The position numbers were made by a program, and so were the translations under genes. Shown here in pieces: positions 2,444 to 45,136 of a stretch of 64,000 bases of DNA. Source of the DNA: a virus. The notes beneath the pieces were generated by a model. That model made no database searches. It saw nothing but the letters and a program-made list of their open reading frames with translations, and was not told the DNA's origin. Within the stretch, counting starts at the first letter, position 1. Every line of letters begins with the position of its first letter. The DNA lies in the IMG/VR virus record IMGVR_UViG_3300038441_001101, positions 1-64,000 of that record, one strand, 5' to 3'.

Positions 2444-3486
2444 TACTCGGTGGTGACTACTCTCACTGGGATGCAGTCCTGGACTGGCCCAATCATGATT
2501 GGAAATATGCCTTCATCAAGGTCAGCGAGGGCACTGTGGAGGACAGTGTATTCAAGGAGCAATGGAAAGCGGCACATGATCGGGTGTATCGCGGTGGATA
2601 CCACTTCTTTCGCCCCCTGGTGCCCTGGAAGTCTGCGGCAGAAAAGTTCATGCAGTTGATGGATCGGGAAGGCCTGGGCGAGCTCCCGCCCGTCTTGGAC
2701 CTGGAGGCCACCAACGGTGTCAGTAACAACGGCATCTGTACGTCTGCGCTGGAGTGGCTGCGGTACGTCCACCGAGAGAGTGGACAGCGCCCACTCGTGT
2801 ACACAGGCCCAGGCTTTGCGGACAGCATCCGCCTCTGGAGGTACATAGAGTTCTCGGACTATCCCCTCTGGCAGGCAACCTATCCCTGGGACACCATCAG
2901 TAATACCTGGTCGGAGGCGCAGCGGGAGCAGCGACTTGGAGAGATTGTCCACGGTGATTACGCAGTCCACTTCCCGGTGGCAGCCCGGCCCTGGCAGGAC
3001 GTTGGTCGCAGTGCAACCTTCTGGCAGTTCACGGGAGCCTGCCCACCGATCTTCGTTCCAGGCTATCCCCTCGGGAACAAGAAGGAAGTGGACGTCAACC
3101 TGTACAGGGGCACGCTACAGGATCTTATATTCCAGTTCAACCTACCGGAACTGGGAGGAGGAACAGTGGTCGATAAACCTATTACATGGAAAGCAACGTT
3201 GAAGGATGGACAACAGGCCAGGGTTCGCAATGCCCCTGGGATCACCGGGACGTCCATCCTGGAGCTGCTGACAGGCCCGCTGTCTTTGCAGGGCACGGGC
3301 TCCAAGATCTTCAAGGATGGTTATTGGTGGGCAGAGCTTGTATTGCCGCGCCCAGGCTGGATTGCCTTCACGACCAGCATCACAGTCCCAGAATGGATCG
3401 TGCCGATGCCCTCCAAGAAGGTGGTCAAGAGCACCCTGGAGTTCGACGACGGCTCCGTGGAGGAGCTCTTCCCGAAGCAGTCATGA
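2440..3486 (+). CDS. Endolysin, GH25 family lysozyme with C-terminal SH3-like region
   Basis: The first ~220 residues carry GH25 muramidase marks: GGDYSHWD at the N-terminus, FIKVSEG, the catalytic-region PVLDLEA, LWQATY, and the closing WQFTG / VDVNLYRG. GH25 enzymes cut the MurNAc-GlcNAc bond of peptidoglycan. Residues ~250-320 (ARVRNAPG to WIAF) look like a bacterial SH3 cell-wall binding domain. There is no signal peptide, so release would need a holin. The start overlaps the upstream gene by ATGA. Confidence 0.93.
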   Translation: MILGGDYSHWDAVLDWPNHDWKYAFIKVSEGTVEDSVFKEQWKAAHDRVYRGGYHFFRPLVPWKSAAEKFMQLMDREGLGELPPVLDLEATNGVSNNGICTSALEWLRYVHRESGQRPLVYTGPGFADSIRLWRYIEFSDYPLWQATYPWDTISNTWSEAQREQRLGEIVHGDYAVHFPVAARPWQDVGRSATFWQFTGACPPIFVPGYPLGNKKEVDVNLYRGTLQDLIFQFNLPELGGGTVVDKPITWKATLKDGQQARVRNAPGITGTSILELLTGPLSLQGTGSKIFKDGYWWAELVLPRPGWIAFTTSITVPEWIVPMPSKKVVKSTLEFDDGSVEELFPKQS

Positions 3487-4286
3487 CGAAGCAGACCGTC
3501 CATTACGACGACGGGACATTCGATGTCCTGACGCACCCTCTCCAGTATTACCGGCACAAAGGTGACGTGGAGATCAAGGGCCGCCTCCGCAGCTGCGCCA
3601 CCCCCGAGGGAGCTTCCCCGAACACCAACGGCTGTCCGGCTGTGTGGACGATGCTGGACGAGATCCAGCCGTTGAACAAGTACTGGCAGTTCGCGCTCTG
3701 CGGCTGGAATCCAGGGATCCCTCCCAAGAGCGTGATGGCGGAGCTGGGTGGCACGCGCGCCCTGGCCAACCGCCTCGGGTACGGCATGGGGAAGAACCTG
3801 ACGAACTGGCCCGTGGGATCCAACACGGACTCCCCGTACGATCCAGCTTTTGACAAGGTCAGGACGATGTCGCACAGCATGCTCAGTGGGGTAGCTGCGC
3901 CGGAGGGCAAGCTGTGGTTCCGGGACTACAGAACCGACAGGATGAAGATGTATACGGGTTATCTGATCGTGGACTTGTTTGACGGGAGCAAGAATCCACC
4001 CATGAAGCCTGGCAAGCGTCAGCCCGAGACGATGTCTGAGGTGAACTTCGAGAACTACCTGTACAATCCCCGCGACCACTGGCACCTGTTCTTTGCATTG
4101 AACATCGTCAACTTCAGCGGGGAGCTCGTCCCGTTCGCAGGTGGAGCAACCTACCCGTGGTTCTTTGAAGGCAAACATCCCGTCTGCTTCATGCCGCATG
4201 TGTCCCGAAAGCAGGTGCTGTACCCGTTGGAATTGTTGGAGGAGTTACCGTTAGGGACTCCCCGTGTCAGACCATACACCAAATAG
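3483..4286 (+). CDS. Hypothetical late protein next to endolysin
   Basis: The protein has 267 residues and I do not recognise its family. It starts at ATG 3483, overlapping the lysozyme stop (ATGA). It has no membrane segment or signal peptide. Its sequence is rich in aromatic and Pro residues with two Cys near residue 35-50 (SCATPEG, NGCPAVW). The overlap and co-orientation suggest co-translation with the lysozyme, so a role in lysis or as a virion protein is possible. Confidence 0.7.
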   Translation: MTKQTVHYDDGTFDVLTHPLQYYRHKGDVEIKGRLRSCATPEGASPNTNGCPAVWTMLDEIQPLNKYWQFALCGWNPGIPPKSVMAELGGTRALANRLGYGMGKNLTNWPVGSNTDSPYDPAFDKVRTMSHSMLSGVAAPEGKLWFRDYRTDRMKMYTGYLIVDLFDGSKNPPMKPGKRQPETMSEVNFENYLYNPRDHWHLFFALNIVNFSGELVPFAGGATYPWFFEGKHPVCFMPHVSRKQVLYPLELLEELPLGTPRVRPYTK

Positions 4287-5741: not shown

Positions 5742-6060
5742 CTGTGATCTTGGGCCACTCCCTCCCCCTGTTGATGTTCTGCTTCTCGATCAGAGCCGAG
5801 GCGATCTGCTCGGGAGTGTAGCCCTCCCGTCCGGCTCCATCAAATGCCAGTATGATGATGTCCATCCACTCCAGCAAGTTGTGCGGGAATCTTCTGACTT
5901 CCTCCACTTCCTTCTCGATGTGCTTGAGCAAGCCTTCCGTGTGATTCCCTTCCCCGAATGTTTTCAGAGACCACTCCTGATGCTCCTGGATGTATTCCTT
6001 GATGGTCATCATCTTCACTTGATACAGACTAGGTTGTGTCTTTCTTCTGATTAGGCTCAT
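5680..6060 (-). CDS. DUF550 / MazG-like dATP/dGTP diphosphohydrolase
   Basis: Residues ~18-105 match the DUF550 family (TIKEYIQEHQEWS, EKEVEEV, EWMDIIILAFDGA, GYTPEQIASAL, REWP). The EKEVEEV and EWMDIIILAFD acidic helices are the metal-binding pattern of MazG-type all-alpha NTP pyrophosphohydrolases. Characterised members remove pyrophosphate from dATP or dGTP; in Z-genome phages the relative MazZ makes dGMP for dZTP synthesis. No PurZ gene is seen here, so a nucleotide-pool role is more likely. Start at 6060 follows GGAG. Confidence 0.85.
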   Translation of the reverse strand: MSLIRRKTQPSLYQVKMMTIKEYIQEHQEWSLKTFGEGNHTEGLLKHIEKEVEEVRRFPHNLLEWMDIIILAFDGAGREGYTPEQIASALIEKQNINRGREWPKITDASQPTEHVRKESNGQNADG

Positions 6061-6406
6061 GCGATTTTCTCCAGTTCATGTATTGTTGAATCACTTTCTC
6101 TCGCTCCTGTTTTGGAAGTCTCCTCCACGCAAGGAGATACTCTGGCAGTGGAACTTTCTGTATTGGTGGAGCTTTCCCGGATTTCTTTTTTGTCAGTGGT
6201 AGGAATAATTTCCTCCTCGCCTCTTTTCCCTTCTCGGACCTATCTGTTGGCTCCACTCCATTCTTCAACAGCTGCCAGACTCGTGCCGGATTTACTCCAA
6301 GAGACTCTGCTGTCTTGTAACAGTTCCCATGAAACTTCTTATAGCGTCTCCATAGTCTCGGAGGAGTATTTGGATGCGGAGTTTCAATCGTGCCAGGCTT
6401 TCTCAT
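6029..6406 (-). CDS. Putative helix-turn-helix DNA-binding protein
   Basis: 125 residues. The section AESLGVNPARVWQLLKNG (about 30-47) reads like a helix-turn-helix of the phage terminase-small/repressor kind. The remainder is very basic. The ATG at 6406 overlaps the stop of the HNH gene (ATGA), which favours this start over 6439. Could be a regulator. Confidence 0.55.
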   Translation of the reverse strand: MRKPGTIETPHPNTPPRLWRRYKKFHGNCYKTAESLGVNPARVWQLLKNGVEPTDRSEKGKEARRKLFLPLTKKKSGKAPPIQKVPLPEYLLAWRRLPKQEREKVIQQYMNWRKSHEPNQKKDTT

Positions 6407-6786
6407 TTCCTCCCACTCCCATAAACCCAACGATGCCACTCCGGTCTCCGAAAGTGATAACCCTCGTCGTTGACTTCCTCTGTCCTTTCAATGAGGGTCA
6501 GTCCAGAATCATCTTCATCTCCAGATGTTGTAATCTCCTTGATTGTCCTCAGAGGAGTTTCAGATGCTTCAACGGAGCGTTCACATTTTCTGCAAAGCGT
6601 CAGAAGGTTCTCAAGGACAGCCCTACCACCCTCCGGCTTTGGGATGACATAGTGTGCCACGATTCTCTTGCCCTGTTTGTTCTTTCTTCCGCAACGTTTA
6701 CATGTGAACTTGTCACGCTCAAAACAACTTCTTCGCACCTCCTTCCAGGCTTTCCTGGACTGTTTTGGTACCCTTGCAGTACGCAT
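6403..6786 (-). CDS. HNH endonuclease
   Basis: 127 residues with the HNH fold pattern: CKRCG zinc knuckle, AHYVIPKPEGG (the first His of HNH), then NLLTLCRKCE. Two CxxC pairs hold the structural zinc. HNH proteins of this size act as nicking or double-strand nucleases. The start at 6786 is set by AGGAGG 6 bases upstream; the frame is open to 6975 but the extra part lacks support. Neighbour is a possible DNA-binding protein. Confidence 0.87.
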   Translation of the reverse strand: MRTARVPKQSRKAWKEVRRSCFERDKFTCKRCGRKNKQGKRIVAHYVIPKPEGGRAVLENLLTLCRKCERSVEASETPLRTIKEITTSGDEDDSGLTLIERTEEVNDEGYHFRRPEWHRWVYGSGRK

Positions 6787-7002
6787 CGCTAGCCTCCTGT
6801 AACGCCAACAGGTGTCCTTGTAATCGTTTTTGGTCTTGTAAGGCACCCGTCTACGGGTAGTGGAAAATTGTGTAACAAAACTCCCCTTGCGGTTTTTATA
6901 TTTTATAAAAATGAAGCCAGGTTCCCAGTCTAAACTTTTGGCTGAAAAACCTGACCTCGTTTCGTTCGGTTGCACGTACGTGCGTGCGGGAAAGCCTACG
7001 TT
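6787..7002 (-). other. AT-rich gap, possible promoter region
   Basis: No convincing gene. The minus strand has an AT tract (TATAAAATATAAAA near 6895-6910) that could hold a -10 element for the HNH operon, and an ACCCG-TAGA-CGGGT hairpin around 6845-6860. A hairpin AAGCCTAC/GTAGGCTT (6992-6999 / 7008-7015) overlaps the 3' end of the upstream gene and may be a weak terminator. All are tentative. Confidence 0.3.
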
Positions 7003-7668
7003 TTAGGGTAGGCTTGATGTTAGGGCGGGGGTGGGGTTACGCGCCTGCCGGAGGAGCTCTTGCAGGTCGTACTCCTTCTTGACCCACTCAGAAGAATATT
7101 CCCAGAAGTAAGTGATGCCCTTTTCGGTGAGCTGGAACCCGCTCAAGTTGTTCTTGGGATTGCGCAATTGGATCAACCCAGCGCGGAGCAGCTCGTGCTT
7201 GATTTCACGGATCTTGGACGAGCCAATCACGGTGTCCTTCCAGTCACTCTCTGCTAACGTCTTCGTTCCCGTGAGTAGACCATCCGCGATGACTTGCGTG
7301 CGTTCTGGTGACAGGTTCAATGTGAATACCTTCATTGCATAGATGTCACTCTCACCTGCTTCTCCGGTGACGTTGCTCTGGAGCTTGACTGTTCTGGGAG
7401 GAGTGATAAATCCGAGTGTACCCCAAAGCTCCGGAGGTGTCTTCTGGAGCTTGTCAATGTCCCGACCAACGTTCTGCCAGTACTCGGAATACTTCTCGAT
7501 GGTGATGGAGACTGCAATACTGACACAGGTGACCAGACAGACAATTGCAACAACGACGAACGCCACACCTGTCTGCCAGCTCGGAAAGAAGCCCGTCACA
7601 ACTGCTGTGACCAACAGGATGATGATCGGTAATAGGATGTGTTGCGGTTTGGGTACATAGGAAAACAT
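7003..7668 (-). CDS. Membrane-anchored protein with winged-helix-like C-terminus
   Basis: 221 residues. Two hydrophobic segments at about 11-30 and 34-56 form an N-terminal membrane hairpin. The C-terminal ~90 residues (SKIREIKHELLRAGLIQLRN, GFQLTEKGITYFWEYS) look like a winged helix-turn-helix of the MarR/transcription-factor type. This suggests a membrane-tethered DNA- or protein-binding regulator. Exact function unknown. Confidence 0.6.
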   Translation of the reverse strand: MFSYVPKPQHILLPIIILLVTAVVTGFFPSWQTGVAFVVVAIVCLVTCVSIAVSITIEKYSEYWQNVGRDIDKLQKTPPELWGTLGFITPPRTVKLQSNVTGEAGESDIYAMKVFTLNLSPERTQVIADGLLTGTKTLAESDWKDTVIGSSKIREIKHELLRAGLIQLRNPKNNLSGFQLTEKGITYFWEYSSEWVKKEYDLQELLRQARNPTPALTSSLP

Positions 7669-10230: not shown

Positions 10231-12420
10231 TCATTCTCCTTTCATCAACAGTTCCACGTTTCTGGAACGCAGGCTACTGGCGAACTTCCTCCAGGTCACG
10301 ACGACCTCCGGAGGCAGGTTATTCTTGCGATATTCCAGTTCTGTGTACTCCGGATACACCTTGTTCAGGGCTTCCGCATCCCCGCTTGTAATGTAAAGTC
10401 CACTAGCGCCACCTCCAGGAAGCTCCGCAAAGTGAACAGAGAATGCGTTGTGTACCACCGTAACGTATCCATCGACAATGTGCTTGAGGGCAAACTCGTA
10501 GTCTTCGTACAGTTTGAGTGCAGGGTTGAAGCCCTGGCCCGTCTGGATGTTGACCAGCATGAGACCACGCACAGCATCGTTGACCGTGAACGGGAGACTA
10601 TTATCTTCTCCATTGATGTTCACACCTAGCAACGCTACGTTGGAATAGTCTTCCACCCAGCGTTCCAGTGTGCTGAACAGGGCCCGTAACGTGGAAGCCT
10701 CCCTGCTTTGATCTAACACTGCATCAATATCGTCATCCAGTATCCACGCATAAGGGTAGCCCTGCTCCTTACAGGTGGCATAGATGTATTCTCTGGCAGC
10801 TCCAGTCCCGATCGCTCCCTTGGGGAGTACCATCACGTCTGCATTGGGGAATCTATCATGGTAGTGATCCAGGTCTGTGCTTGGAACAACAAGAGTGTAG
10901 TTGATACGGGAGTTGTCCAACAACTTCATTGTGGTGGCTGTAGCCCAGCGCCTACGGCTGATCACATAGATTGGATATGCCACGTGCCCAAAGTTCGTTC
11001 CGTCCGCAGTCATTTCATCGAAACGTTCCGCATTAGGCTTGCCAGCCATGCGCAGCTGGAACGCCAACTCATTCACGGAGCCTATCCTTACGCCCTCTTC
11101 AATGAAGGGCTTGTTGTACAGGTAGATGATGTCCCCGTTGTCATCTGGAGCAGAGGCTACCAATGCGCCACCAAAGTACCGATTCGGGCTCTGCCAAGAG
11201 TTTGGTGTATTCCAGATGTCGTGCATGTAGTCATACATGGATTGATAACGACGCTTGGCACGCTCCACGCTATCCGATGGAAATCCTTCAGCGGTATAGA
11301 CTTCAATTCCACTGAGAACCTCATGAGCCTCCTCAGCGATATCCGACCAGGTCACGTAACCCTTCTCTCTGGCGATCAGGATTGCATGAGCGTACTGCCC
11401 GTGGTTGACATTGGATAACGGGCCCGTTTCCGGGAGTCCACAGCAGCCCGCGTGGTAACTGTCCTCTTTATGGTGTGCATCACTCACAAAGAATTTCAGG
11501 TTATGGCGTTCAGCGGAGTCTTTCATCTCCAGGATGTAGGGTCGCTTGAGATCATAGTTCAACCGGAGCAATCCACTGGCTCGCGCGCTATTCTTCATGT
11601 AGAAGTCCCAGACGTCGTACCCCAGCGTTTTACTCATGGCGTCCAGGCGTTCCTTGGAGGTGTTACTAGCACGCGACTCCCAGGTGAGGAACTCCGTGGT
11701 AACGCTATAGCATCCAGCATCCTCCGCCAATGTCATCATTTCTTCGATGCACTTGTCACTGGTGCCCAGTACAAAGGGCCGGAAGCGCAGGGTGGTCGCG
11801 CCCACTCCCATCTTGTTCAGCTTTTCCATGGCCGCAAAGCGTGCCCGTGCAAGAGGGACACCTGGCTCCAGCTTCTTGACGTGTTCCTCAATGCTGGATA
11901 TGATGGAGTACTTCCAGTGCATGTTCTTGGCACCTGTGCAGACCTCGATGTACTCCGAATCATCAACCCACCACACACCTTTCGTGCTAATGGAAATCGG
12001 GTAGTCGATCTCACGGAAGAAACGTAGCAGCTCCAGAGACTTCCGGAACTTGCGCTCGTACCAGTCGAAGCCATCACTGAGCCCACCCCACTGGAGCACC
12101 ATGCGCTTCTTGATGTAACCTGCGAACTGTCCACCGAACTCATCCGGGTGTAGGAACATACGCTTGATCTTCTCGATGTTCACCGGGCGAACCTTGTGGT
12201 GTAGATAATCATCCGCACCATCTCCAATAGCTCGCTGGAAGAAGCTGAAGCAATACAGACACTGATGCGCACAGTTACTGTACGTATCAAATGTCATGGG
12301 CATGGCACAATCTAAAATCTCATAGGTCCACCTCGGTGAACCGTAGAACCCCTCATCCAGCTTCAGTCCACCCATACTATCCGACTTGTCAGTTTTGATA
12401 TTCTTTGGTTTTGGGGGCAT
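10231..12420 (-). CDS. Radical SAM protein fused to GT-A glycosyltransferase (probable DNA base modification enzyme)
   Basis: 729 residues. The N-terminal half (about 20-330) is a radical SAM domain: CAHQCLYC gives the CxxxCxxC iron-sulfur motif at residues 50-57. The C-terminal half (about 490-700) resembles the GT-A family linked to TET/JBP dioxygenases in phages: IYVISRRR, VLPKGAIGTGAAREYI and the metal-binding ILDDDID at about 560. Those transferases add sugars to hydroxylated DNA bases. A fusion with radical SAM is an unusual arrangement. The gene opens a cluster with kinase, sulfotransferase-like, helical and amidotransferase proteins, so a role in DNA hypermodification is inferred. Substrate unknown. 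Confidence 0.8.
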   Translation of the reverse strand: MPPKPKNIKTDKSDSMGGLKLDEGFYGSPRWTYEILDCAMPMTFDTYSNCAHQCLYCFSFFQRAIGDGADDYLHHKVRPVNIEKIKRMFLHPDEFGGQFAGYIKKRMVLQWGGLSDGFDWYERKFRKSLELLRFFREIDYPISISTKGVWWVDDSEYIEVCTGAKNMHWKYSIISSIEEHVKKLEPGVPLARARFAAMEKLNKMGVGATTLRFRPFVLGTSDKCIEEMMTLAEDAGCYSVTTEFLTWESRASNTSKERLDAMSKTLGYDVWDFYMKNSARASGLLRLNYDLKRPYILEMKDSAERHNLKFFVSDAHHKEDSYHAGCCGLPETGPLSNVNHGQYAHAILIAREKGYVTWSDIAEEAHEVLSGIEVYTAEGFPSDSVERAKRRYQSMYDYMHDIWNTPNSWQSPNRYFGGALVASAPDDNGDIIYLYNKPFIEEGVRIGSVNELAFQLRMAGKPNAERFDEMTADGTNFGHVAYPIYVISRRRWATATTMKLLDNSRINYTLVVPSTDLDHYHDRFPNADVMVLPKGAIGTGAAREYIYATCKEQGYPYAWILDDDIDAVLDQSREASTLRALFSTLERWVEDYSNVALLGVNINGEDNSLPFTVNDAVRGLMLVNIQTGQGFNPALKLYEDYEFALKHIVDGYVTVVHNAFSVHFAELPGGGASGLYITSGDAEALNKVYPEYTELEYRKNNLPPEVVVTWRKFASSLRSRNVELLMKGE

Positions 12421-14583: not shown

Positions 14584-15561
14584 TCAAAATAATGAGAGCT
14601 GTTTAGACTGCGTCCCGGCTCCATTCCATAACTGGCTATTGTCCTTGCCGGTCTTTTCTATGAGCAACTCAAATGGATAGAACTCTTCCCGGAACTGCCA
14701 TAATACCTCCCAGCAGACACCCTCCTGGACGTTCTTCTGCATGGAAGAGATTTCTTTGGCTTGTCGAGTAATGTAGTAACCTGGATAACGTTTCCCACGA
14801 TGCCACTTCTTATAGGCACACAACGTGGTTTCCACATTCCAGATGTCCACTCGTGTACCTGGGGACTCCTTTCGCATTAGGCTCAAAAGTTCTTTGAACT
14901 TTTTGTGTAGCCACTCCATTTCGGAACTAGAGATGTGATCCCTGCCGTAGTTGTGACCACATAATAGATCATCTCGCCCGAGCGCAAAACATAGTCCGTT
15001 GCGGGAGGACTGTGCCTCTTCGAGTGGAAAGTAGTCAGGCTCAATAGGTAGATCAGTAACCACATGTACAGCCTCCAATAAAAGGAAGAGTTTGAACCTA
15101 CCCATATACTTGACGTTCTTGAAATAATCGTAGCAGGCTTGATAGGGACTGCTGCTTGATTGAATTGCCCTCGAGACAATCTCATGATAAGTGTTCTCCT
15201 GATCTTCTCCGCAAAGACTGCGATAGTCCATGTACATTCCCACGAACAGGTTCGAGGATCGTATCCACCTACAGTCCGTTTGGAAATCCAGCTGGTGGCG
15301 GTGGGCATTCCACCAGCGCTCCAGCCGTCCAACGTCCACACCCAGGTAATCCGGGAACTCGTTATAGATGTAGAATACCGTCGCGGCATTATAGCAAGTA
15401 GCGTACAGATATGCCAACCAGTAGCGCTGTTCCATGTTCAGCTCGAAGCGGTCACAGACATACTTCAGCAGTTCATAGCTTGGATCAATGTCCTTGAGCT
15501 CCTCACTGTAACGGTGGTACTCCAGGAACTCCCGCACGCGTCCTTCGTTGATTAGAGCCAT
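14584..15561 (-). CDS. Helical protein resembling amino acid:DNA transferase / alpha-glutamyl-putrescinyl thymine pyrophosphorylase
   Basis: 325 residues, mostly helical. The stretches LNMEQRYWLAYLYAT, YNEFPDY, WWNAHRHQLDFQTD and RWIRSSNLFVGM recall the helical family predicted and shown to act on 5-pyrophosphoryl-methyl-dU in hypermodified thymidine phages, where an amino acid or polyamine displaces the phosphate. The identification rests on recalled motif similarity, not on a search. It overlaps the amidotransferase gene by 10 bases and follows the kinase and sulfotransferase genes in the same operon. Confidence 0.6.
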   Translation of the reverse strand: MALINEGRVREFLEYHRYSEELKDIDPSYELLKYVCDRFELNMEQRYWLAYLYATCYNAATVFYIYNEFPDYLGVDVGRLERWWNAHRHQLDFQTDCRWIRSSNLFVGMYMDYRSLCGEDQENTYHEIVSRAIQSSSSPYQACYDYFKNVKYMGRFKLFLLLEAVHVVTDLPIEPDYFPLEEAQSSRNGLCFALGRDDLLCGHNYGRDHISSSEMEWLHKKFKELLSLMRKESPGTRVDIWNVETTLCAYKKWHRGKRYPGYYITRQAKEISSMQKNVQEGVCWEVLWQFREEFYPFELLIEKTGKDNSQLWNGAGTQSKQLSLF

Positions 15562-22550: not shown

Positions 22551-22901
22551 TCACTCATTCTTTCGAGTGTAGTACACCTGGAGCTGCTCCAGGGTCTGGA
22601 CAACATACTTGATGACGATCACGCCTGTGCTAGCGGCGAATGGAAATAATACCTGGAGGACGGGCTCCCCGTAAATGTACCACAGGATGAATAGCGACAC
22701 CCCGATCCAGATGCTCAGGCACCACTCGCACGTGAAGCCTTCGTGGAGCCTGAACCTGTGCAGGACAGCAAAGCGATTGTCCAGCTTCCAGACAATGTCC
22801 CGGATGCCCTGGAACACCCTGAACGGGCCAGTCTCATTGGCGAACAGGCTGACCAGCCGCCAGAGGGCCATCGTGAAGATGAAGTAGTTCATGAATTGCA
22901 T
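22551..22901 (-). CDS. DUF1360-like membrane protein
   Basis: 116 residues. The FTCEWCLSIWIG segment (about 56-67) and flanking hydrophobic helices match the DUF1360 family of bacterial and phage membrane proteins. Two or three membrane segments are visible. ATG 22901 follows AAGGGAGACC. Function of the family is unknown. Confidence 0.75.
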   Translation of the reverse strand: MQFMNYFIFTMALWRLVSLFANETGPFRVFQGIRDIVWKLDNRFAVLHRFRLHEGFTCEWCLSIWIGVSLFILWYIYGEPVLQVLFPFAASTGVIVIKYVVQTLEQLQVYYTRKNE

Positions 22902-22934
22902 GTTGGTCTCCCTTATGGAAATGTTATTCAGTTT

Positions 22935-23985
22935 TGGATGGAAAAGTCCCGGTTACACGATCCGGGTCGGCTTACCTTTTCCTGTGAGTTATGGTATCTA
23001 ACTGGGAAACCCTCTGTACCAAACACGTTCTCCTCACTTGTTGACTGGCTGGCAACCCTTTCGGATGGAGATTGAACTGCTCTGACACGTGGTGTCCGTA
23101 CTCCAATAGGTGTTTCTAATTGCGCCAGTTTCACAGCCGATGCTCCCTCATGCTTTTGATGCCTTGCCTGAGGATACAAGGAGTTCCCCACCTGCACCGT
23201 TGTCCTGACCAACCTAACAGTCCAACCAGTGAGGCTTATATTTCATCCTCTACCTGAACTGTTCAAGGATTGTTGCATACCCGCCAGGGCTGACGAATGC
23301 GGCAGGGACAATTTTCTTGCCTGCCCACTGGACTTGCGTTCGTAGCTGGTGCCAGTGGGCAGGTCCACAATTTGTATACCGCAGGGATTTCTTCGTGCGG
23401 TTGGATGCTTCAGCCGTGTTCCTATGTTTCATCTGAAGTTTGCCTTCACAGACAGAGTGATTACTCTCTACATCTCCATCCAGTTTAGAACACAGGGTTC
23501 CCTTTGTATGTCCATTGCTCTGGAACACCGCAAGCAACAGAGTTCCATCACGGGATCCGCCTTAGGCATTCTCTCCGGATATGAGTCTTGCGCCTGGCCT
23601 GCCGCATCACGTCATGCAGGGTATACCCGCACCGCAGGCCATGCCGTTTCAGGGTACAGATGGATTGTTCCTGCATTCTGTTGTCCTGACTGTTGACAGG
23701 ACTTGGGGCGTCATTCAGTTCCCGAAATAGGATGCCAATTTTAGCGCTACTTGAGAACATCCTATCTTTGATTTTTACAGCCCTCTCACACCGTCGGGAA
23801 TGGCGCGGTGAGCCCCTGTTCCAGCAACATGGGAACATGTCTAGTTCAACGAGTCCTTTCGGACTGAGAACCTTTGGGGCTATGGAGTCTCATGCGATTT
23901 ACTCCACTAGCATCCTTCTGACAACGCATCCGCAAAATGGATGTGGTAGATGCTATGCACAACTGGCATCTGCATGCCAGACCAT
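22935..23985 (-). ncRNA. Candidate giant structured noncoding RNA (GOLLD/ROOL-like)
   Basis: About 1,050 nt with no credible gene on either strand. Stems on the minus-strand RNA include 23963-23969/23974-23980 (7 bp), 23908-23914/23949-23955 with inner 23927-23931/23939-23943, 23852-23856/23861-23865 (AGTCC-GAAA-GGACT, a GNRA loop), 23827-23831/23836-23840, 23727-23734/23758-23765 (8 bp), 23683-23688/23697-23702, 23596-23602/23634-23640 enclosing two hairpins, 23521-23526/23542-23547, 23379-23383/23396-23400, 23320-23331/23352-23363 (12 bp, CCTGCCCACTGG), 23084-23088/23092-23096 and 22948-22952/22962-22966. Giant phage RNAs such as GOLLD and ROOL have this size and setting; exact family membership is not shown. 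Confidence 0.7.
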
Positions 23986-23987
23986 GC

Positions 23988-24791
23988 CTACTCAATCCCA
24001 GCAGCCTCCAGGAGCTCGTCAGGATCATAGTTCCCGAACGGATTGCCTTCCAGCATCTTCTTTGTCCGCTTCTTGTTCTTGACGTTGGAATTGTAAAGGG
24101 TAACCACCTGTTTGATGACGTCCGCGGGAATGTCTCCTTCCTCGACCTCTTCTTCCCCAGCTTCCACTTCTTCCTCATCATCGGGCCCGAATGTCATCTC
24201 GGCTTCTGCGTCGCGTGGCGGATAGCGCAGGTCGTGTGCAGCCTTACACTCTTCCAGGGTCTTATAGACCCCAATGAACTTTGGAACCTTGTAGGGTTTC
24301 TTGTCACCCTTGGGAGGCTCGATCGCTTCCACAGCCTCGGCTGCCACGTACACGGTAGGCGAACTCTTCCCGTTTGAGATCAGCTTATCCTCCCATTCCT
24401 TGCCGAACACCTTCACGAGGGAGGGCTGAACAATCTCTGACCAGCTGGTCAGAAGCCACTTGTTGGGATCCTTGTTGGTCTTGTTGCTGACCTTGATGTC
24501 GATCTCACGTTGAAAATGGAAATCCAGGGCAGGGTTGATCTCCGTGATGTCGATGTCGAATGCCAGCTGGAAGGACTCCTTGCCTTCCTCGAGCTCGATC
24601 TCCTCTTCGTTCTTGAGGCCGAACTCCTTCACGTACTCGGGCAGCGTATACTTGTCGGGCTTCTGCCCACGGCCTTTCCAGCGGATGATTATCGGCATGA
24701 CCGTCATCGAGCCGAAATTGACATTGGCACCACCTCCGGTCGCGACCGGAGCTTCATCCACCATCTTCTTGACCTTGTCTATGAACTTCAT
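23988..24791 (-). CDS. Hypothetical replication-block protein, acidic
   Basis: 267 residues with an acidic stretch (GPDDEEEVEAGEEEVEEGD, about 200-220). A Gly-rich start after residue 15 precedes beta-rich segments (MPIIIRWKGRGQKPDK). It lies between ERCC4 and UvrD genes and could be a single-stranded DNA-binding or recombination accessory protein, but no diagnostic motif is present. Confidence 0.6.
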   Translation of the reverse strand: MKFIDKVKKMVDEAPVATGGGANVNFGSMTVMPIIIRWKGRGQKPDKYTLPEYVKEFGLKNEEEIELEEGKESFQLAFDIDITEINPALDFHFQREIDIKVSNKTNKDPNKWLLTSWSEIVQPSLVKVFGKEWEDKLISNGKSSPTVYVAAEAVEAIEPPKGDKKPYKVPKFIGVYKTLEECKAAHDLRYPPRDAEAEMTFGPDDEEEVEAGEEEVEEGDIPADVIKQVVTLYNSNVKNKKRTKKMLEGNPFGNYDPDELLEAAGIE

Positions 24792-30230: not shown

Positions 30231-30466
30231 CAGGCTCCTTTCCTGAACCACTTGTTGAACTCCGCCACGGGGCAGGTCTCCATGGCGGTCTTGATGCTGG
30301 GATCCTTGTAGAACTTGGCGTAGCGCACGTGCCCGTCCTCCACCCATTGCGGGACAACATGGCTGATCATGTCGTGCGGATCCCGGTCTTTGTGGTGGTA
30401 AACCACGCCAACCTCCGGCAGCACGGGCTCGACTTTGACCAACCAATTACCAATCTTCAGCTTCAT
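30230..30466 (-). CDS. Hypothetical protein
   Basis: 78 residues starting at ATG 30466 behind AAAGGAG. Contains VYHHKDRDPHDMISH and ends basic (FNKWFRKGA). Unknown. Confidence 0.6.
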   Translation of the reverse strand: MKLKIGNWLVKVEPVLPEVGVVYHHKDRDPHDMISHVVPQWVEDGHVRYAKFYKDPSIKTAMETCPVAEFNKWFRKGA

Positions 30467-30489
30467 AGATCTCCTTTCAGGAATGGAAA

Positions 30490-30790
30490 ATGTCTGCCGC
30501 ACCCACCGTGGCCCTCCAGCTCTCAGGAACCATACCTCTGGCAGGCACTCGTATGGAGCAGCAGGTTGCGCCAGCGTTTACACTGGCAATTCAACAGAGG
30601 CTTACAGGTCAGGTGACGCTGACACCATCATGCTCTGTTAGTAACTGGTTGCTTATCTCAATCCGTTCAGGTCTCAAGAGACTTTCACTCGCCAGGGGAT
30701 GTCTTCAAACTGACTTCCACAGTCACCTGGGTTCCTAAACTTGGGCATGTTCGCCTCGAGGCAAGCCCGCAAGATTGAGATAAGCAATCA
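30490..30790 (-). ncRNA. Candidate structured RNA closed by a 15-bp stem
   Basis: No credible gene on either strand. TTGCTTATCTCAATC (30649-30663) pairs perfectly with GATTGAGATAAGCAA (30773-30787). A hairpin at 30570-30577/30580-30587 contains a pair that matches only on the minus strand (G-U wobble), indicating a minus-strand RNA. A GTCTC-AA-GAGAC hairpin and a GCCTCGAGGC stem lie inside the loop. Promoter and true ends are not clear. Confidence 0.5.
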
Positions 30791-30798
30791 ATCACCAA

Positions 30799-30832
30799 CA
30801 AAAAAGGGCCGAGCGAGTTCAGGTCTCGGCCC
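30799..30832 (-). terminator. Intrinsic terminator
   Basis: An 8-bp stem GGGCCGAG (30806-30813)/CTCGGCCC (30825-30832) is followed on the minus strand by a T7 run (30805-30799). It ends transcription arriving from higher coordinates and separates the 31 kb genes from the structured RNA at 30490-30790. Confidence 0.85.
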
Positions 30833-30837
30833 TAACT

Positions 30838-31134
30838 CCACCAACGTCTCCTTTCTTTATATAAGATGGCATAAAAATAAATCCCCCTATGAAAGTGATA
30901 ATCCTTTTTATTCTTAGGTTGTCAACCGTACCAATTCGTTATTCGTGTAGGCTCTTTTCCCTTAGCTACCGTGTGCTGACCACAGACCTGCGATTGAAGC
31001 TGATGCGCATCTTACTGCAATCACGTCTTCCCCTCCAGCACTGTCTCAGGGGTAACGAGCACCATAAGGATCACCTCCTATCCAAGATGTTTGTTAGCTT
31101 ACCCTTTCGGTTCCATCTTTGCCAGGTCAATGAT
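30838..31134 (-). other. Noncoding stretch with stems and tiny ORFs
   Basis: About 300 nt with no clear gene. On the minus strand there are stems 31084-31089/31114-31119 and 31030-31034/31048-31052, and a 14-codon ORF (31021-31065) behind an exceptionally strong AGGAGGTGA site, followed at a GTGA overlap by a 20-codon ORF (30962-31024). They could be leader peptides or part of an RNA that continues to the terminator at 30799-30832. An AT-rich tract is at 30855-30920. Confidence 0.35.
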
Positions 31135-31368
31135 CTACTCGACATTTCCGTTGGTGAGCAGCAACCAAAGCCGATGGAAATGATCTAGTGCCTGTGGGAC
31201 TAGATGGCAGGCATTGAGGCAGATCAACTGGTCTCCATCCAGCCTGCAATGGGCTCCGCAAGTTGGGCACAGGATGTCACTCAAGCCCAGCTTCTGGTGA
31301 ATGGAACCCTCAAAGTCAGGATCCACTTTTTTGACAGTTTTCTCCCAATCAGGATTTATAGGATTCAT
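31135..31368 (-). CDS. Zinc-ribbon protein
   Basis: 77 residues. CPTCGAHC and a following LICLNACH provide several Cys for a metal site. Starts at ATG 31368 and overlaps the DUF2786 gene by 4 bases. Unknown role. Confidence 0.6.
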   Translation of the reverse strand: MNPINPDWEKTVKKVDPDFEGSIHQKLGLSDILCPTCGAHCRLDGDQLICLNACHLVPQALDHFHRLWLLLTNGNVE

Positions 31369-34468: not shown

Positions 34469-34831
34469 TTACTCGGCAGCAGGTGCGGCAGCGGCCTTGG
34501 CGGTCTTAGCAAGGCGACCAGTGGACGTCCCACCAACGAACGGGCTCCTGGAACCATTGACTTTCTTGGAGGGAGCTTTCTTGGAGGAGACCTTCGTGAC
34601 CTTCTTGGGGGCAGCCTTCTTGGACTTGGCCTTGCGCTCCCCTTTGGGGGCAGCCACGAACTTATGATCGGCACAGAACTGTGCCTTCTTGCCACGCACC
34701 GTCCAGCCAGCAGCCTTGGCTGCCAGTTTCACAGAACGATGGGTCACGTTCTCGCCTTCCTTGATGAACGTGTGATCACAGGACTTGCCATCGCGACCAT
34801 CGCAAACGAACGTAATTTTGGTTGTAATCAT
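34469..34831 (-). CDS. Basic Lys/Ala-rich protein, histone-like tail
   Basis: 120 residues. An N-terminal metal site (FVCDGRDGKSCDHTF, CADH) is followed by a Lys/Ala/Pro-rich tail (KSKKAAPKKVTKVSSKK) like histone H1 or HU extensions. ATG 34831 follows AGGAGATATGA. Probably binds DNA. Confidence 0.7.
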   Translation of the reverse strand: MITTKITFVCDGRDGKSCDHTFIKEGENVTHRSVKLAAKAAGWTVRGKKAQFCADHKFVAAPKGERKAKSKKAAPKKVTKVSSKKAPSKKVNGSRSPFVGGTSTGRLAKTAKAAAAPAAE

Positions 34832-36343: not shown

Positions 36344-37259
36344 CATTTGGTCTCCTTTATAGAACATAAAATGGATTGGACATTCCATTCCCCCATATAA
36401 ATAGAAGCTCCCGAATTGAACGGGTCCCAGTGTACTGAACTTTTCCACTTGGCCTTCCTAGTCGCTTCTGATATAAATTCAAATCTGTTTTCTGTGATCG
36501 GGCTGTGAACTCCCAATCTGCCACAACTTATTCCACCGTTTGGGGCGAACCATAACCATCTTATCAAGTACTCCGTTAGGTTCAGCAATTGGGTGCCGTT
36601 TCTTGGAGGAGGAGGTGCCCTACGGCGATCCTGCCAAGTGTCGTATCCCAATCCCGTTCCAGCGTTTCCAGGGGAGGCATTCCCAGCCTCCGGTCATGTG
36701 AACAATCCTAGCACAAGAGAAGCTCCGCTCGATTGGGTGGGGCAAAGTCTAAGTTACCTTCACGCACTTCCAATCGATCCACTCCTGCTGCGATCTCCCG
36801 ATTGAACGATCGGGCGCTAGCTATCGTTTCCTGCGTTCGTTCACACGTTACTTTGGTGCCAAAATCAGGGCCTAAAAAAACGGGCTCCAATTCCAAAGTT
36901 TATTCAGTTCTCGGTTTTTATATGTGGGGGTTTCGTTTTACAGGTTTGGCGGTTACTACCTTTTAGGTTTGCTCACACGTCCTACCATTTTTTCGCGCTT
37001 CCGTTCCGCTGGGGCTTTCTCCAGTCCTGGCGTCACTCTTATCCAGGCTCGGGCGTCAAAAATACTCTCGGGGCTGACACGTTCACCGCTTTTCTGTTTT
37101 CAAGGTTCGGGGAGGCGGGCAAGCCCGTCCTCGGGGTCAATTCTACCTTTTTCGCCCGTTTTGTAAAGGGGCAAAATCCCCTCCCAGCTTACCCCTAAAA
37201 TAGAACATTTGTTTTACATTTACGGGCCAGTGTAGGAGGTTTTTCGTGTGTCAAACGTC

Positions 37260-37283
37260 CTACACTTACTACACTTACTACAG
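37260..37283 (-). repeat. Iteron-type repeats, inverted orientation
   Basis: On the minus strand this reads CTGTAGTAA GTGTAGTAA GTGTAG, about two and a half 9-bp units. Orientation is opposite to the arrays at 37519 and 37625. Confidence 0.6.
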
Positions 37284-37518
37284 TAAGTATAGTAAAGCTA
37301 GGTACAACATGGCCTTACCCATTTTTACACTACTGCGTTCTAAAAGGTTCAATTGGCAGTAGGGTAAATGGATTATAGAAATAATTCAACAGGAAAATAT
37401 GGTTCCAGGCTGGCACAAATATTTATAAACGTGATCCAATGTTGTCCATCCAATGTGATCCAATAAGAGCCCGCGTGCAGTCAGGAACGTCCAGTTCAAA
37501 GGGCTCTGGCACGTTCTA

Positions 37519-37554
37519 CTGTAGCAAGTGTAGTAAGTGTAGCACGTGTAACAC
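37519..37554 (+). repeat. Iteron array (4 x 9 bp)
   Basis: Four adjacent 9-bp units CTGTAGCAA, GTGTAGTAA, GTGTAGCAC and GTGTAACAC. Regular 9-base spacing of the GTGTA core fits a protein-binding iteron. Confidence 0.75.
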
Positions 37555-37593
37555 ACAAGAAAAGGCATTTTTTAGGGTTACTCGGTGGGTGAG

Positions 37594-37599
37594 TATAAT
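37594..37599 (+). promoter_or_regulatory. Possible -10 element of the late promoter
   Basis: TATAAT 16-17 bases after TTTAGG or TTAGGG (37571-37577). It is the best sigma70-like match upstream of the terminase gene and lies between two iteron arrays, so bound proteins could repress or activate it. The -35 is weak. Confidence 0.4.
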
Positions 37600-37624
37600 C
37601 TACGGGAGCTAAAATAGGGCTCCA

Positions 37625-37669
37625 GTGTAGCAAGTGTAGCAACTGTAGTAAGTGTAACAAGTGTAGTAA
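37625..37669 (+). repeat. Iteron array (5 x 9 bp)
   Basis: Five adjacent 9-bp units GTGTAGCAA, GTGTAGCAA, CTGTAGTAA, GTGTAACAA and GTGTAGTAA. It lies 74 bp upstream of the small terminase gene; origin, pac site or operator are all possible. Confidence 0.78.
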
Positions 37670-37742
37670 TCTAATTCCAGTTCCAGGTCGGCAATCCATT
37701 CCACCCTTGCTGGGGAACATTGACTAGATCTAAAATGACCCC

Positions 37743-38333
37743 ATGAGAAAAAAGAAATCAAACGATAAAGGTAAGAATATCCCAATACCGATTGACGAGC
37801 AGCCGGGAGTTGCTATCGGCTCTGATATTGTCACTCGGGAAATCCAGGTAACAGGTAAAAAGCAGGAAAAGAGAACTCTGCCAGAAGCTGCTGTCCCTTT
37901 CAAATTCAAGCCAGGGCAATCTGGCAATCCTAACGGTCGCCCAAGGGATGTGCTCAAAGAGATCGGCAAGCGCATCGCTAAGGCTTCCGTCAGGAGATAC
38001 TTGAACAAGGAGGAGCGCGAGATCGCCGAGCAATTGGAGATGAACCCGGACGACATGAACATGGTGGAATCCATTATGCTTTCCTTAGCGACGTCTAAGC
38101 GCCCGGAGAAGATTGCGATGTTCCTGGAGCGCGTGTACGGGAAGGTACCTAATCTCAATATCAATGCACAGATCTCAGAAAGTTTAGTAGCGCGCTTCCG
38201 GTCCAAGCTGACGGATGCAGAATTGGAACGCATCGGGGCCGGGGAGGACACCCTGCAGATACTATTGGACAAGCTCCCAGATGTGAATGAAGACGAGGAG
38301 ATCGTAGATGCCGAATATGAAGCTCCAGTTTGA
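37743..38333 (+). CDS. Terminase small subunit-like protein
   Basis: 196 residues. The FKPGQSGNPNGRP segment (about 54-67) is the DUF5681-type signature found in phage terminase-adjacent small subunits. The C-terminal half is helical. It precedes the large terminase gene, as small subunits usually do. Start ATG 37743 has a weak ribosome site; a three-codon ORF (37734) ends at it in an ATGA overlap. Confidence 0.72.
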   Translation: MRKKKSNDKGKNIPIPIDEQPGVAIGSDIVTREIQVTGKKQEKRTLPEAAVPFKFKPGQSGNPNGRPRDVLKEIGKRIAKASVRRYLNKEEREIAEQLEMNPDDMNMVESIMLSLATSKRPEKIAMFLERVYGKVPNLNINAQISESLVARFRSKLTDAELERIGAGEDTLQILLDKLPDVNEDEEIVDAEYEAPV

Positions 38334-42388: not shown

Positions 42389-43019
42389 CGAGGCGGGGAG
42401 CCCGATGTTCCTGGAGCGCATCACCGGCATCATCCATGTTGGTGCGAATGCCGGGCAGGAGAGGGAGCTGTATGCGGAGCACAGTCTGCATGTGCTGTGG
42501 ATCGAGCCGATCCCGGAAGTGTTTGACGCATTGGTGGAGAACCTACGGGAATTCCCCAGGCAGCGGGCTGTTCGAGCCCTGCTCTCCGAGAGGGACGACA
42601 GATTGGAGACCTTGCATGTTGCCTCCAACCAGGGCATCTCTTCCTCCATCCTGGCCCTGGCTCAGCACCAGGAGATCTTCCCGGAGATCCATTACGTGGA
42701 CTCCATCCCGTTGCCGACCGTCACGCTGCCCACCCTGCTCAGGAGGGAGCGGATTGATCCGGGATGCTATCAGGCTTTGCTGTTGGATGTGCAGGGCGCG
42801 GAGCTGCGGATCCTGGAGGGCAGCATCCCCATGCTGTGCAACTTCGACTACATCCAATTGGAAGTGGCGGACTTCGAGTCCTATCGGGGATGCTGCAAGC
42901 TGGTGGACATCGAACGTTTCATGTCCATGAATGGATACGTAGAGCTGGAGCGAGTTGTATGTCCGCTGCCCGTCGGGAACTATTACGAGATGGTGTATTG
43001 CAGGGAGAGCTCATCATGA
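42381..43019 (+). CDS. FkbM-family methyltransferase
   Basis: 212 residues. GIIHVGANAGQE gives the SAM-binding motif and LLLDVQGAELRILEG the second FkbM signature. Family members O-methylate sugars or other hydroxyls. ATG 42381 is embedded in an ATGCATGA overlap with the previous stop. It ends in an ATGA overlap with the fused glycosyltransferase, so the two are coupled. Confidence 0.9.
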   Translation: MHDEAGSPMFLERITGIIHVGANAGQERELYAEHSLHVLWIEPIPEVFDALVENLREFPRQRAVRALLSERDDRLETLHVASNQGISSSILALAQHQEIFPEIHYVDSIPLPTVTLPTLLRRERIDPGCYQALLLDVQGAELRILEGSIPMLCNFDYIQLEVADFESYRGCCKLVDIERFMSMNGYVELERVVCPLPVGNYYEMVYCRESSS

Positions 43020-45136
43020 TCATCAGTCACAGCACCCTTGGCAAGAACGGCAGGCTGGGCAACCAGCTGTTCCAGGTGGCGTCCACACTGGGCCTGGCGG
43101 AGAAGCACGGCACCACGGCTGCCTTCCCGCAATGGGAATACGAGCGTTACTTTGACATCAGCCTCCCGCACGGGCCCATGAGCAGCAACGTTGTCCAGGA
43201 GAAGTACTTCCACTATCATGACTGGGAGATCGCCGGAGACGTGGACGTGATGGGATTCTTGCAGTCCGAGAAGTATTTCGGCTCCACTAAGTTGAAGCTG
43301 AAAGAGGAGTTCGTCCAGGAGGTGAAGTCCAGGGTGCCTGGACTGTTCACTCACGAGACGGTGTGCATCCAGGTGCGGCGTGGGGACTACGTTGGAAATC
43401 CCAATTACCACCAGCTGCCGATCACGTATTACATCTGCGCCTTACTGGAGCACTTCCCCAACTGGAGGGACATGGACATCCTGGTCATCAGCGATGACGT
43501 GGAGTACTGTAAAGTCCACTTTGGCTGCCTGCCCAATGTAACGTTCTCGGAGGGCAACAATACGGACATCCAGGACATGGCACTGGCCTCCCTCTGCGAC
43601 CACTTCATCATAAGTAACTCCAGCTTCGGCTGGTGGTGCGCCTGGCTCGGGGAGAAGAAGCACACCAAGGTCGTTCACAGTGGGCATATGTTTGCCGGGA
43701 AGCTGGCACGTAAGAACGCCAACGACTATCGTCCGGCAAGATGGATCTCTTACAACAGGGAGAGCTACAAGATTCCCCTCAAGGACGTCACGTTTACCAT
43801 CCCTGTTTACTTTGACCATCCGTTCCGCAAGGAGAACCTGGACCTCATCTGCTACTTGCTGTTGAACTCCTTCGAGACCCAGCTCATTGTCAGCGAGCAG
43901 GGTGGCAACAAGTTCAAGTACGTGGAGTCCTGGGCCACCTACATGGTGCACGCGGGCAACGTCTTCCATCGGACCAAGATGCTCAACGATATGTGCAACA
44001 GGGCCGGGACACCCTACGTCGCCAACTGGGACGCAGACGTGATCGTTGCACCAATGCAGGTGCTGCTGGCAGTGGAGGCCCTGCGCAATGGGGCCGACAT
44101 GGCATACCCGTACGATGGAGGCTTCGCGAGGATGCCAAGGTTGGAATGGTTCCCGAAGCTCCAGAAGTCCTTTGACATCGGCGTGGTGGGCAACACGTTC
44201 TTCAAGGGAAGGGATCCTTCCGAGAACAGCTCGGGTGGGGCTGTCCTTTGGAACAAGGAGGCCTTCATCGATGCCGGGATGGAGAACGAGTACATGGTTT
44301 CTTTTGGACCTGAGGACGGAGAGCGATTGGATCGCGCCAAGAAGCTGGGGTACAGGGTGGAGCGCATCCAGGGCCCGCTGTTCCACATGAACCATCACGT
44401 GGGACCGAACTCCTCTCCAAAGAACCCTTACTTCAATGCGAATGTGATCGAGCAGAAGAAGGTGTTCAGCATGAGTGCGAGCGAGCTGCGGGCTTACGTG
44501 GACACCTGGCCCTGGCGGCATCAGTACACCAACCGATACTATCGCGAGATCAGCGAGGGTGCAATGCGCTCTGCCAGGATCGTCATGGAGGCCTTGCCGT
44601 TCCAGGTTGGCTCCGTGATCGACGTGGGGTGCGGCGTGGGCGAGTGGAGCAACGGCAATCCTGATTACATTGGCATAGACTATCGCATCGACAAGGATAA
44701 ACTGCTCATCCCTTACGGGAGCTACGTTGAATGCAATCTCAACAGGGAGTTCGTTGTCCCTCCAAAGAAGTTTGACCTGGCCCTTTGCCTGGAGGTGGCG
44801 GAGCACCTGCATCCCAGCCGGGCCGAGCCTTTGGTGGAGTACCTCTGCTCGCTCAGTGACCGCGTCTTGTTCTCGGCAGCCATCCCCTATCAAGGTGGCA
44901 GTGGTCACGTGAATGAGCAGTGGCAGGAGTGGTGGGCCGAGCTGTTCTACAAGAATGGGTTCGGCACCACGGACAACTCCGTCAAGCTCGCCCTGACCGT
45001 CGTCCATCATGAGGAAGTGGAGCTCTGGTACCGGCAGAACATGGTGCTGTACGAGAGGGGTGGCCCTGGACGAGTGACCAACTTTGTCCTGCCGGAGTAT
45101 TACGAGCAGATCGTGAAAGGAGCGAAGGATGGCTAG
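43016..45136 (+). CDS. Trifunctional protein: GT11 fucosyltransferase-like, GT-A glycosyltransferase and methyltransferase domains
   Basis: 706 residues. About 1-260 is GT11-like: GRLGNQLFQVAS, the IQVRRGDY donor motif and SSFGWWCAW. About 265-480 is a second glycosyltransferase, with ANWDADVIVAP as its metal-binding DXD-like site and DGERLDRAKKLGYRVERI. About 520-690 is a class I SAM-dependent methyltransferase (VIDVGCGVGEWSN). ATG 43016 overlaps the FkbM stop. A three-enzyme fusion of this type is unusual. It could build and cap a glycan in one chain; the acceptor is unknown. Confidence 0.85.
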   Translation: MIISHSTLGKNGRLGNQLFQVASTLGLAEKHGTTAAFPQWEYERYFDISLPHGPMSSNVVQEKYFHYHDWEIAGDVDVMGFLQSEKYFGSTKLKLKEEFVQEVKSRVPGLFTHETVCIQVRRGDYVGNPNYHQLPITYYICALLEHFPNWRDMDILVISDDVEYCKVHFGCLPNVTFSEGNNTDIQDMALASLCDHFIISNSSFGWWCAWLGEKKHTKVVHSGHMFAGKLARKNANDYRPARWISYNRESYKIPLKDVTFTIPVYFDHPFRKENLDLICYLLLNSFETQLIVSEQGGNKFKYVESWATYMVHAGNVFHRTKMLNDMCNRAGTPYVANWDADVIVAPMQVLLAVEALRNGADMAYPYDGGFARMPRLEWFPKLQKSFDIGVVGNTFFKGRDPSENSSGGAVLWNKEAFIDAGMENEYMVSFGPEDGERLDRAKKLGYRVERIQGPLFHMNHHVGPNSSPKNPYFNANVIEQKKVFSMSASELRAYVDTWPWRHQYTNRYYREISEGAMRSARIVMEALPFQVGSVIDVGCGVGEWSNGNPDYIGIDYRIDKDKLLIPYGSYVECNLNREFVVPPKKFDLALCLEVAEHLHPSRAEPLVEYLCSLSDRVLFSAAIPYQGGSGHVNEQWQEWWAELFYKNGFGTTDNSVKLALTVVHHEEVELWYRQNMVLYERGGPGRVTNFVLPEYYEQIVKGAKDG

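Follow-up and report, generated by a model that had tools for sequence, protein, structure and literature searches.

Coding potential and folding of the intergenic gap

The window, that is, the whole 64,000-nt stretch of phage DNA that was analysed (IMG/VR record IMGVR_UViG_3300038441_001101), carries two minus-strand genes separated by a gap of 1,086 nt (22902-23987; Table 1). With 28 genes of the window phage as its training set, a codon model gave negative values in all six frames of the gap (-0.13 to -0.33 bits/codon), against values above zero for every true gene scored when left out (+0.06 to +0.50 bits/codon). The longest stop-free run (116) did not exceed chance (shuffle mean 108, p 0.32), and a gene-finding seven-state HMM, independent of the codon model, called 22948-23988 noncoding; it made the same call for 6026-7042, 30465-31135 and 36456-37749, and the gap is therefore not unique in the window. 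Neither ARAGORN nor Rfam reported a tRNA or tmRNA in the window.

On the minus strand, the gap folds with a minimum free energy of -382.6, compared with -342.8 ± 7.8 for dinucleotide shuffles (z = -5.1), and on the plus strand with z = -2.5. The minus-strand excess of -39.8 kcal/mol goes beyond the value in each of 46 further strand windows of this length (mean -9.3, sd 10.4, minimum -32.1), making the gap richer in structure than any other stretch of its size sampled in the window phage, although the margin is not wide. A first-pass annotation, made from the sequence alone, had described about 1,050 nt without coding signal and with dense stems, among them a 12-bp perfect stem (23320-23331/23352-23363) and a hairpin with a GAAA loop (AGTCC-GAAA-GGACT). 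The codon model, the stop-free run and the HMM bear out the first point and the folding excess the second, while the long stem is an exact match and the hairpin is present at 23865-23852 on the minus strand, indicating that the original observation was real.

The stability signal comes from the gap's 5' portion of ~820 nt (z = -4.0 versus shuffles), where the stems cited in that annotation also lie; they are distinct from the evolutionarily conserved stems described below, which occupy a 3' core that is not more stable than its shuffles (z = +0.9). The gap thus holds two things, a conserved 3' RNA core and a 5' part of ~820 nt.

Other regions of the window also drew attention. Local folding excess reaches its highest level in the window (z = -5.4 at 30601) within the noncoding stretch at 30465-31135 (minus strand). 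This stretch contains an element of ~320 nt, which an imperfect stem of 28 nt (30636-30663/30773-30800) closes and which is preceded by a terminator-like hairpin and its T run (about 30800-30833); it has no Rfam match and is not a copy of the core family. The 1.3 kb noncoding region at 36456-37749, between leftward early and rightward late genes, contains direct and inverted ACACTTACTACA-type repeats and is probably an origin or control region. Genes for an amino acid:DNA transferase (ADDT), a glucosyl-HMC transferase-like protein and glycosyltransferases (14584-15561, 10231-12420 and 42764-45136) suggest hypermodified DNA.

Table 1. Features of the gap and its flanking genes, in order along the minus strand.
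Feature	Position	Strand	Description and basis
Upstream gene	23988-24791	-	267 aa, without a family; also conserved in G004 and G022, the two relatives with synteny
Lineage-specific 5' part	23165-23987	-	Noncoding, z -4.0; holds stem 23320-23363 and GAAA hairpin 23852-23865
Conserved RNA core, P1-P4, family member	22946-23144	-	Covariance model R1, three islands in order, covariation
P1, 5' strand	23135-23140	-	UCGGCU; closes core; pairs with 22967-22972
P2/P2b, 5' strand	23119-23129	-	ACUGGC-G-CAAU; pairs with 23044-23056
P2b/P2, 3' strand	23044-23056	-	GUUG-CCA-GCCAGU; pairs with 23119-23129
P3, 5' strand	23033-23037	-	GUGAG; pairs with 22984-22988
P3, 3' strand	22984-22988	-	CUCAC; pairs with 23033-23037
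Island C, nearly invariant joining strand	22973-22985	-	ACAGGAAAAGGUA; alignment
P1, 3' strand	22967-22972	-	AGCCGA; pairs with 23135-23140
P4, 3' hairpin	22948-22966	-	Conserved loop AUCGUGUAA; alignment and covariation
Downstream gene	22551-22901	-	116 aa, DUF1360 / phrog_781

Homologues of the core in other phages

DNA of the window phage matched nothing among 50,697 phage records, and queries with the helicase neighbourhood, the DUF1360 gene or single proteins did not lead to relatives carrying the RNA. Alignment of the portal protein led to closer kin of the window phage. One relative, G004 (IMGVR_UViG_3300000956_000096), shares with the gap three short islands of matching DNA in collinear order, downstream of its homologue of the upstream gene (48% identical). 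These islands were used as degenerate patterns in scans of viral contigs and in one scan of bacterial genomes, with further islands required in order, and the core was found in 12 distinct phages, comprising the window and 11 further contigs (G004, L201, L208, L210, L222, L229, L230, L232 [= L233], L235, L238 and L239). The upstream gene and the helicase are common to the window, G004 and L235 (G022), which makes these three truly syntenic. The MAG that contains L222 carries a spirochaete label, but the content of the contig, including a clamp loader, a primase, a ribonucleotide reductase, an endolysin and six tRNAs, points to a phage.

Further searches returned no additional copies. There is none elsewhere in the window; covariance model R1 matched none of 50 other phage records related by portal or helicase, many of them fragments, at E ≤ 0.05; and a plasmid search gave matches to the query's tRNA portion alone. 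DNA matches of the L238 and L230 cores to named phages were at chance level. Among 393 genomes from the phylum of G028, the scan recovered a misbinned phage contig of G028 and otherwise only one-mismatch matches to island A. A 20-nt match in G005 was dismissed as chance, there being no window protein and no other island nearby.

A core fold maintained by compensatory changes

We aligned 11 copies over 113-116 nt, trimming variable inserts by hand and keeping L210 out; the manual trimming and the small number of copies, 12 in all, call for some caution. RNAalifold, run without a given structure, recovered P1, P2/P2b, P3 and part of P4, with changes on both sides in 16 of 27 pairs. In the named structure, 92.3% of cells are paired (76.9 ± 1.6 in shuffles) and 43 cells are compensatory (14.3 ± 3.0, with none of 500 shuffles as high); these shuffles do not preserve the relatedness among copies, but controls in which the partner was slid by 1-3 columns do, and there pairing falls to 18-43%. 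Double changes in the homologues convert CG to UA, GC to AU and UA to GC in P1, and interchange AU/GC, CG/UA, CG/AU and CG/GC in P2/P2b. All five pairs of P3 covary, the helix occurring as GUGAG/CUCAC, AUCCC/GGGAU, AAUAA/UUAUU and GUUUC/GAAAC. L210, although outside the alignment, was recovered by the model at 39.7 bits (E 3.6e-7). The core is thus a domain closed by P1, with arms P2/P2b and P3, joining strands and a 3' hairpin, P4, and its fold is maintained by compensatory changes and is under selection in phages.

The window copy has no mismatches to islands A, B and C, which occur in order, and forms P1 to P4 with all 26 pairs standard, placing it in the newly defined family; forcing these pairs onto it costs 0.5 kcal/mol, and it scores 96.1 bits across the full model, of which it is a training member. 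Three joining strands (GNGAA, CARCAA and ACAGGAAAAGG) are almost without variation, which, judged from sequence, looks like a functional site.

Homologues and strong covariation therefore support the structured noncoding RNA that the first-pass annotation had placed on the minus strand of the phage early operon. The covariation it had called for is found in the 3' core, and no relative was found in which the 5' part could be compared.

Extent of the core and lineage-specific extensions

The core spans about 130-440 nt across phages, a range set by variable inserts in P2 and P3; the shortest copy, L210, lacks P3. In L229 the core (274-467) sits between a tRNA-Arg ending at 271 and a tRNA-Gln starting at 469, and in L208 it starts ~20 nt past the end of a gene, indicating that the family unit runs from P1 to P4. 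By contrast with the proposal of a single giant RNA of ~1 kb, the conserved unit measures ~200 nt and lies at the gap's 3' end, and the stems cited in favour of that proposal belong to a part for which none of the compared loci has a relative.

Small genes occupy the place of this 5' part in G004 and G022. We considered whether it was a decayed version of them and rejected the idea, their counterpart in the window being at 34661-34780. G004 has a structured noncoding extension of its own on the opposite side of the core (z = -3.4), and L230 a long noncoding stretch behind the core that is not unusually stable (z = +0.3). The 5' part in the window and the extension in G004 show that some lineages have extensions, which can lie on either side of the core; the one of ~820 nt may be a separate RNA or serve as an accessory 5' domain. 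Long P2 inserts are alike within the pair L192/L235 and within the pair L230/L239, so that subtypes with additional conserved domains exist within the family. Around the G004 core, a P4-type hairpin, CCAGUAU-NNN-GUAAGCUGG, is present in three copies (L192, ~3899-3879, 3580-3560 and 3514-3494, minus strand), which gives it the look of a repeated module.

Association with tRNA genes

In 6 of the 12 phages the core lies in or beside tRNA genes, which number 15 in L201, 16 in L232, 6 in L229, 4 in L238 and 6 in L222/L242; in L235 the core comes directly before a tRNA. Among viral loci with chance matches, 1 of 16 has a tRNA, a single one. The window copy, G004, L208, L210, L230 and L239 have no tRNA nearby, and neither the tRNA link nor the guess at translation that follows from it is therefore universal. 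The sequence after the core also varies: tRNA-Gln comes next in L229 and a tRNA in L235, and in other phages the core is followed by short frames or by genes of other kinds. In four phages a gene for an ERCC4-domain nuclease is located no more than a few kilobases from the core; we take it to be shared early-region content and not a partner.

Two of the tRNA-rich loci have further elements. A tmRNA-like element stands directly before the core in L201 (~2060-1660, minus strand) and in L232 (just before 12735), recognised by eye from a 5' motif, a T-arm-like GGACTTCGAAGTCC and complementary ends, and unreported by ARAGORN and Rfam. In L201, ARAGORN also reports a tRNA with anticodon CUA (suppressor/Pyl type) inside the phage tRNA array (3470-3542, minus strand).

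Comparison with known phage RNAs

Searches against Rfam gave no family for the window stretch or for the L229 core, and on the homologous loci they returned only tRNAs, int-alpA and antisense-of-tRNA noise. A comparison with the literature, made by description and not by sequence, gave no recognisable account of the core, and a published motif absent from Rfam is possible.

GOLLD is an RNA of phages and prophages, of unknown function, that is often near tRNA islands and has a conserved 3' region beside variable sequence; ROOL is a phage RNA that is likewise often near tRNA islands. Neither RNA has been assigned a function, and in vitro both assemble into RNA cages (PMC12286853). The GOLLD model (RF02032) matched none of the 11 carrier records at E ≤ 10, nor the window at the gathering threshold or at E ≤ 10. 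The ROOL model (RF03087) also matched none of the 11 at E ≤ 10, but control genomes were unmatched too, leaving that search without a positive control; general cmscan gave no ROOL match either. Membership of either family, raised by the first-pass annotation, is thus not upheld. The analogy it drew holds in part: the phage setting, the tRNA islands at 6 of 12 homologues and the conserved 3' part by variable sequence recall GOLLD, and the first two of these recall ROOL, but the window itself has no tRNA. The conserved unit, at about 130-440 nt, is also smaller than the many GOLLDs that exceed 800 nt, and much smaller than that of ROOL.

By location, two other phage RNAs are the closest analogues. 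The stable RNAs C and D of T4 (species 1 and 2; 139 and 119 nt) lie within a phage tRNA cluster, but model R1 does not match them (best 4.9 bits in the region). Staphylococcus phage K lnc001 is a long noncoding RNA beside phage tRNAs and is abundantly transcribed (PMC9241854); model R1 is unmatched there as well (best 6.7 bits). In the phage K record (L263), ~1.1 kb of noncoding sequence at 1180-2334, from tRNA-Asp to gp191, is the place of lnc001.

Interpretation

The core is best read as a previously uncatalogued, structured phage RNA family, associated with tRNA arrays and here provided with a lineage-specific 5' extension. It would be transcribed within a polycistronic early transcript, in the window phage behind the ~820-nt structured extension, and tRNA-trimming enzymes (RNase P, RNase E/Z) would release it as a stand-alone, trans-acting RNA, a step suggested by the L229 copy, which exactly fills the space between two tRNAs, and by the gene behind the core, which differs by phage. 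Once released, it might act in the takeover of translation, in the manner of other RNAs that phages keep in their tRNA arrays, with the joining strands as a putative binding or assembly site; we offer this role tentatively and by analogy, guided by the half of the copies that have tRNA neighbours. Taken whole, with a new family at the 3' end of the gap, stand-alone release and, more weakly, a role in translation, this explanation is moderately probable.

The whole ~1,050 nt could instead be one giant ornate RNA, with a conserved 3' and a variable 5' domain, forming a large particle or multimer like GOLLD. The noncoding 5' part, folding above chance, and the structured extension across the core in G004 are consistent with such an RNA, but we consider it rather doubtful, since the 5' part has no relative found, small genes stand in its place in G004 and G022, and the L229 and L208 copies begin at the core, leaving no room for a 5' domain. 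That the core is a highly diverged GOLLD or ROOL would account for its phage hosts, the tRNA islands and the conserved part next to a variable one; with RF02032 and RF03087 unmatched in the 11 records (the latter without a positive control) and no Rfam model at all matching the core, this is very improbable.

A cis-acting leader of the next gene, riboswitch-like or an attenuator, is suggested by the end of the core ~45 nt ahead of the DUF1360 start codon and by the compactness of the domain and its invariant joining strands, features that riboswitches share. Against it speak the differing sequences downstream of the core, the relatives of DUF1360 that lack the core and the minus strand itself, which shows no terminator-like switch above chance; we regard such a leader as unlikely. 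The gap is also gene-sized, and introns and guide RNAs are structured, but a decayed gene, intron, guide RNA or other mobile element appears the least probable origin of all: no frame in the gap carries a signal, the small genes of relatives have their counterpart at 34661-34780 and not in the gap, and the scanned neighbours are not endonucleases, reverse transcriptases or transposases. Group I and group II introns in particular were rejected, as no Rfam intron family matched and both flanking genes are complete.

Returning to the uncatalogued family favoured here, it is a real possibility, if one we hold with less confidence than the explanation above, that it represents a third class beside GOLLD and ROOL, with a fold and function of its own, spread over unrelated phages, serving the takeover of translation and extended in places to kilobase size. 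An unrelated family in GOLLD- and ROOL-like places, with copies under 200 nt, would give a simpler handle on the non-tRNA RNAs kept among phage tRNAs, and its definition, three islands and five helices, can be searched by anyone at once.
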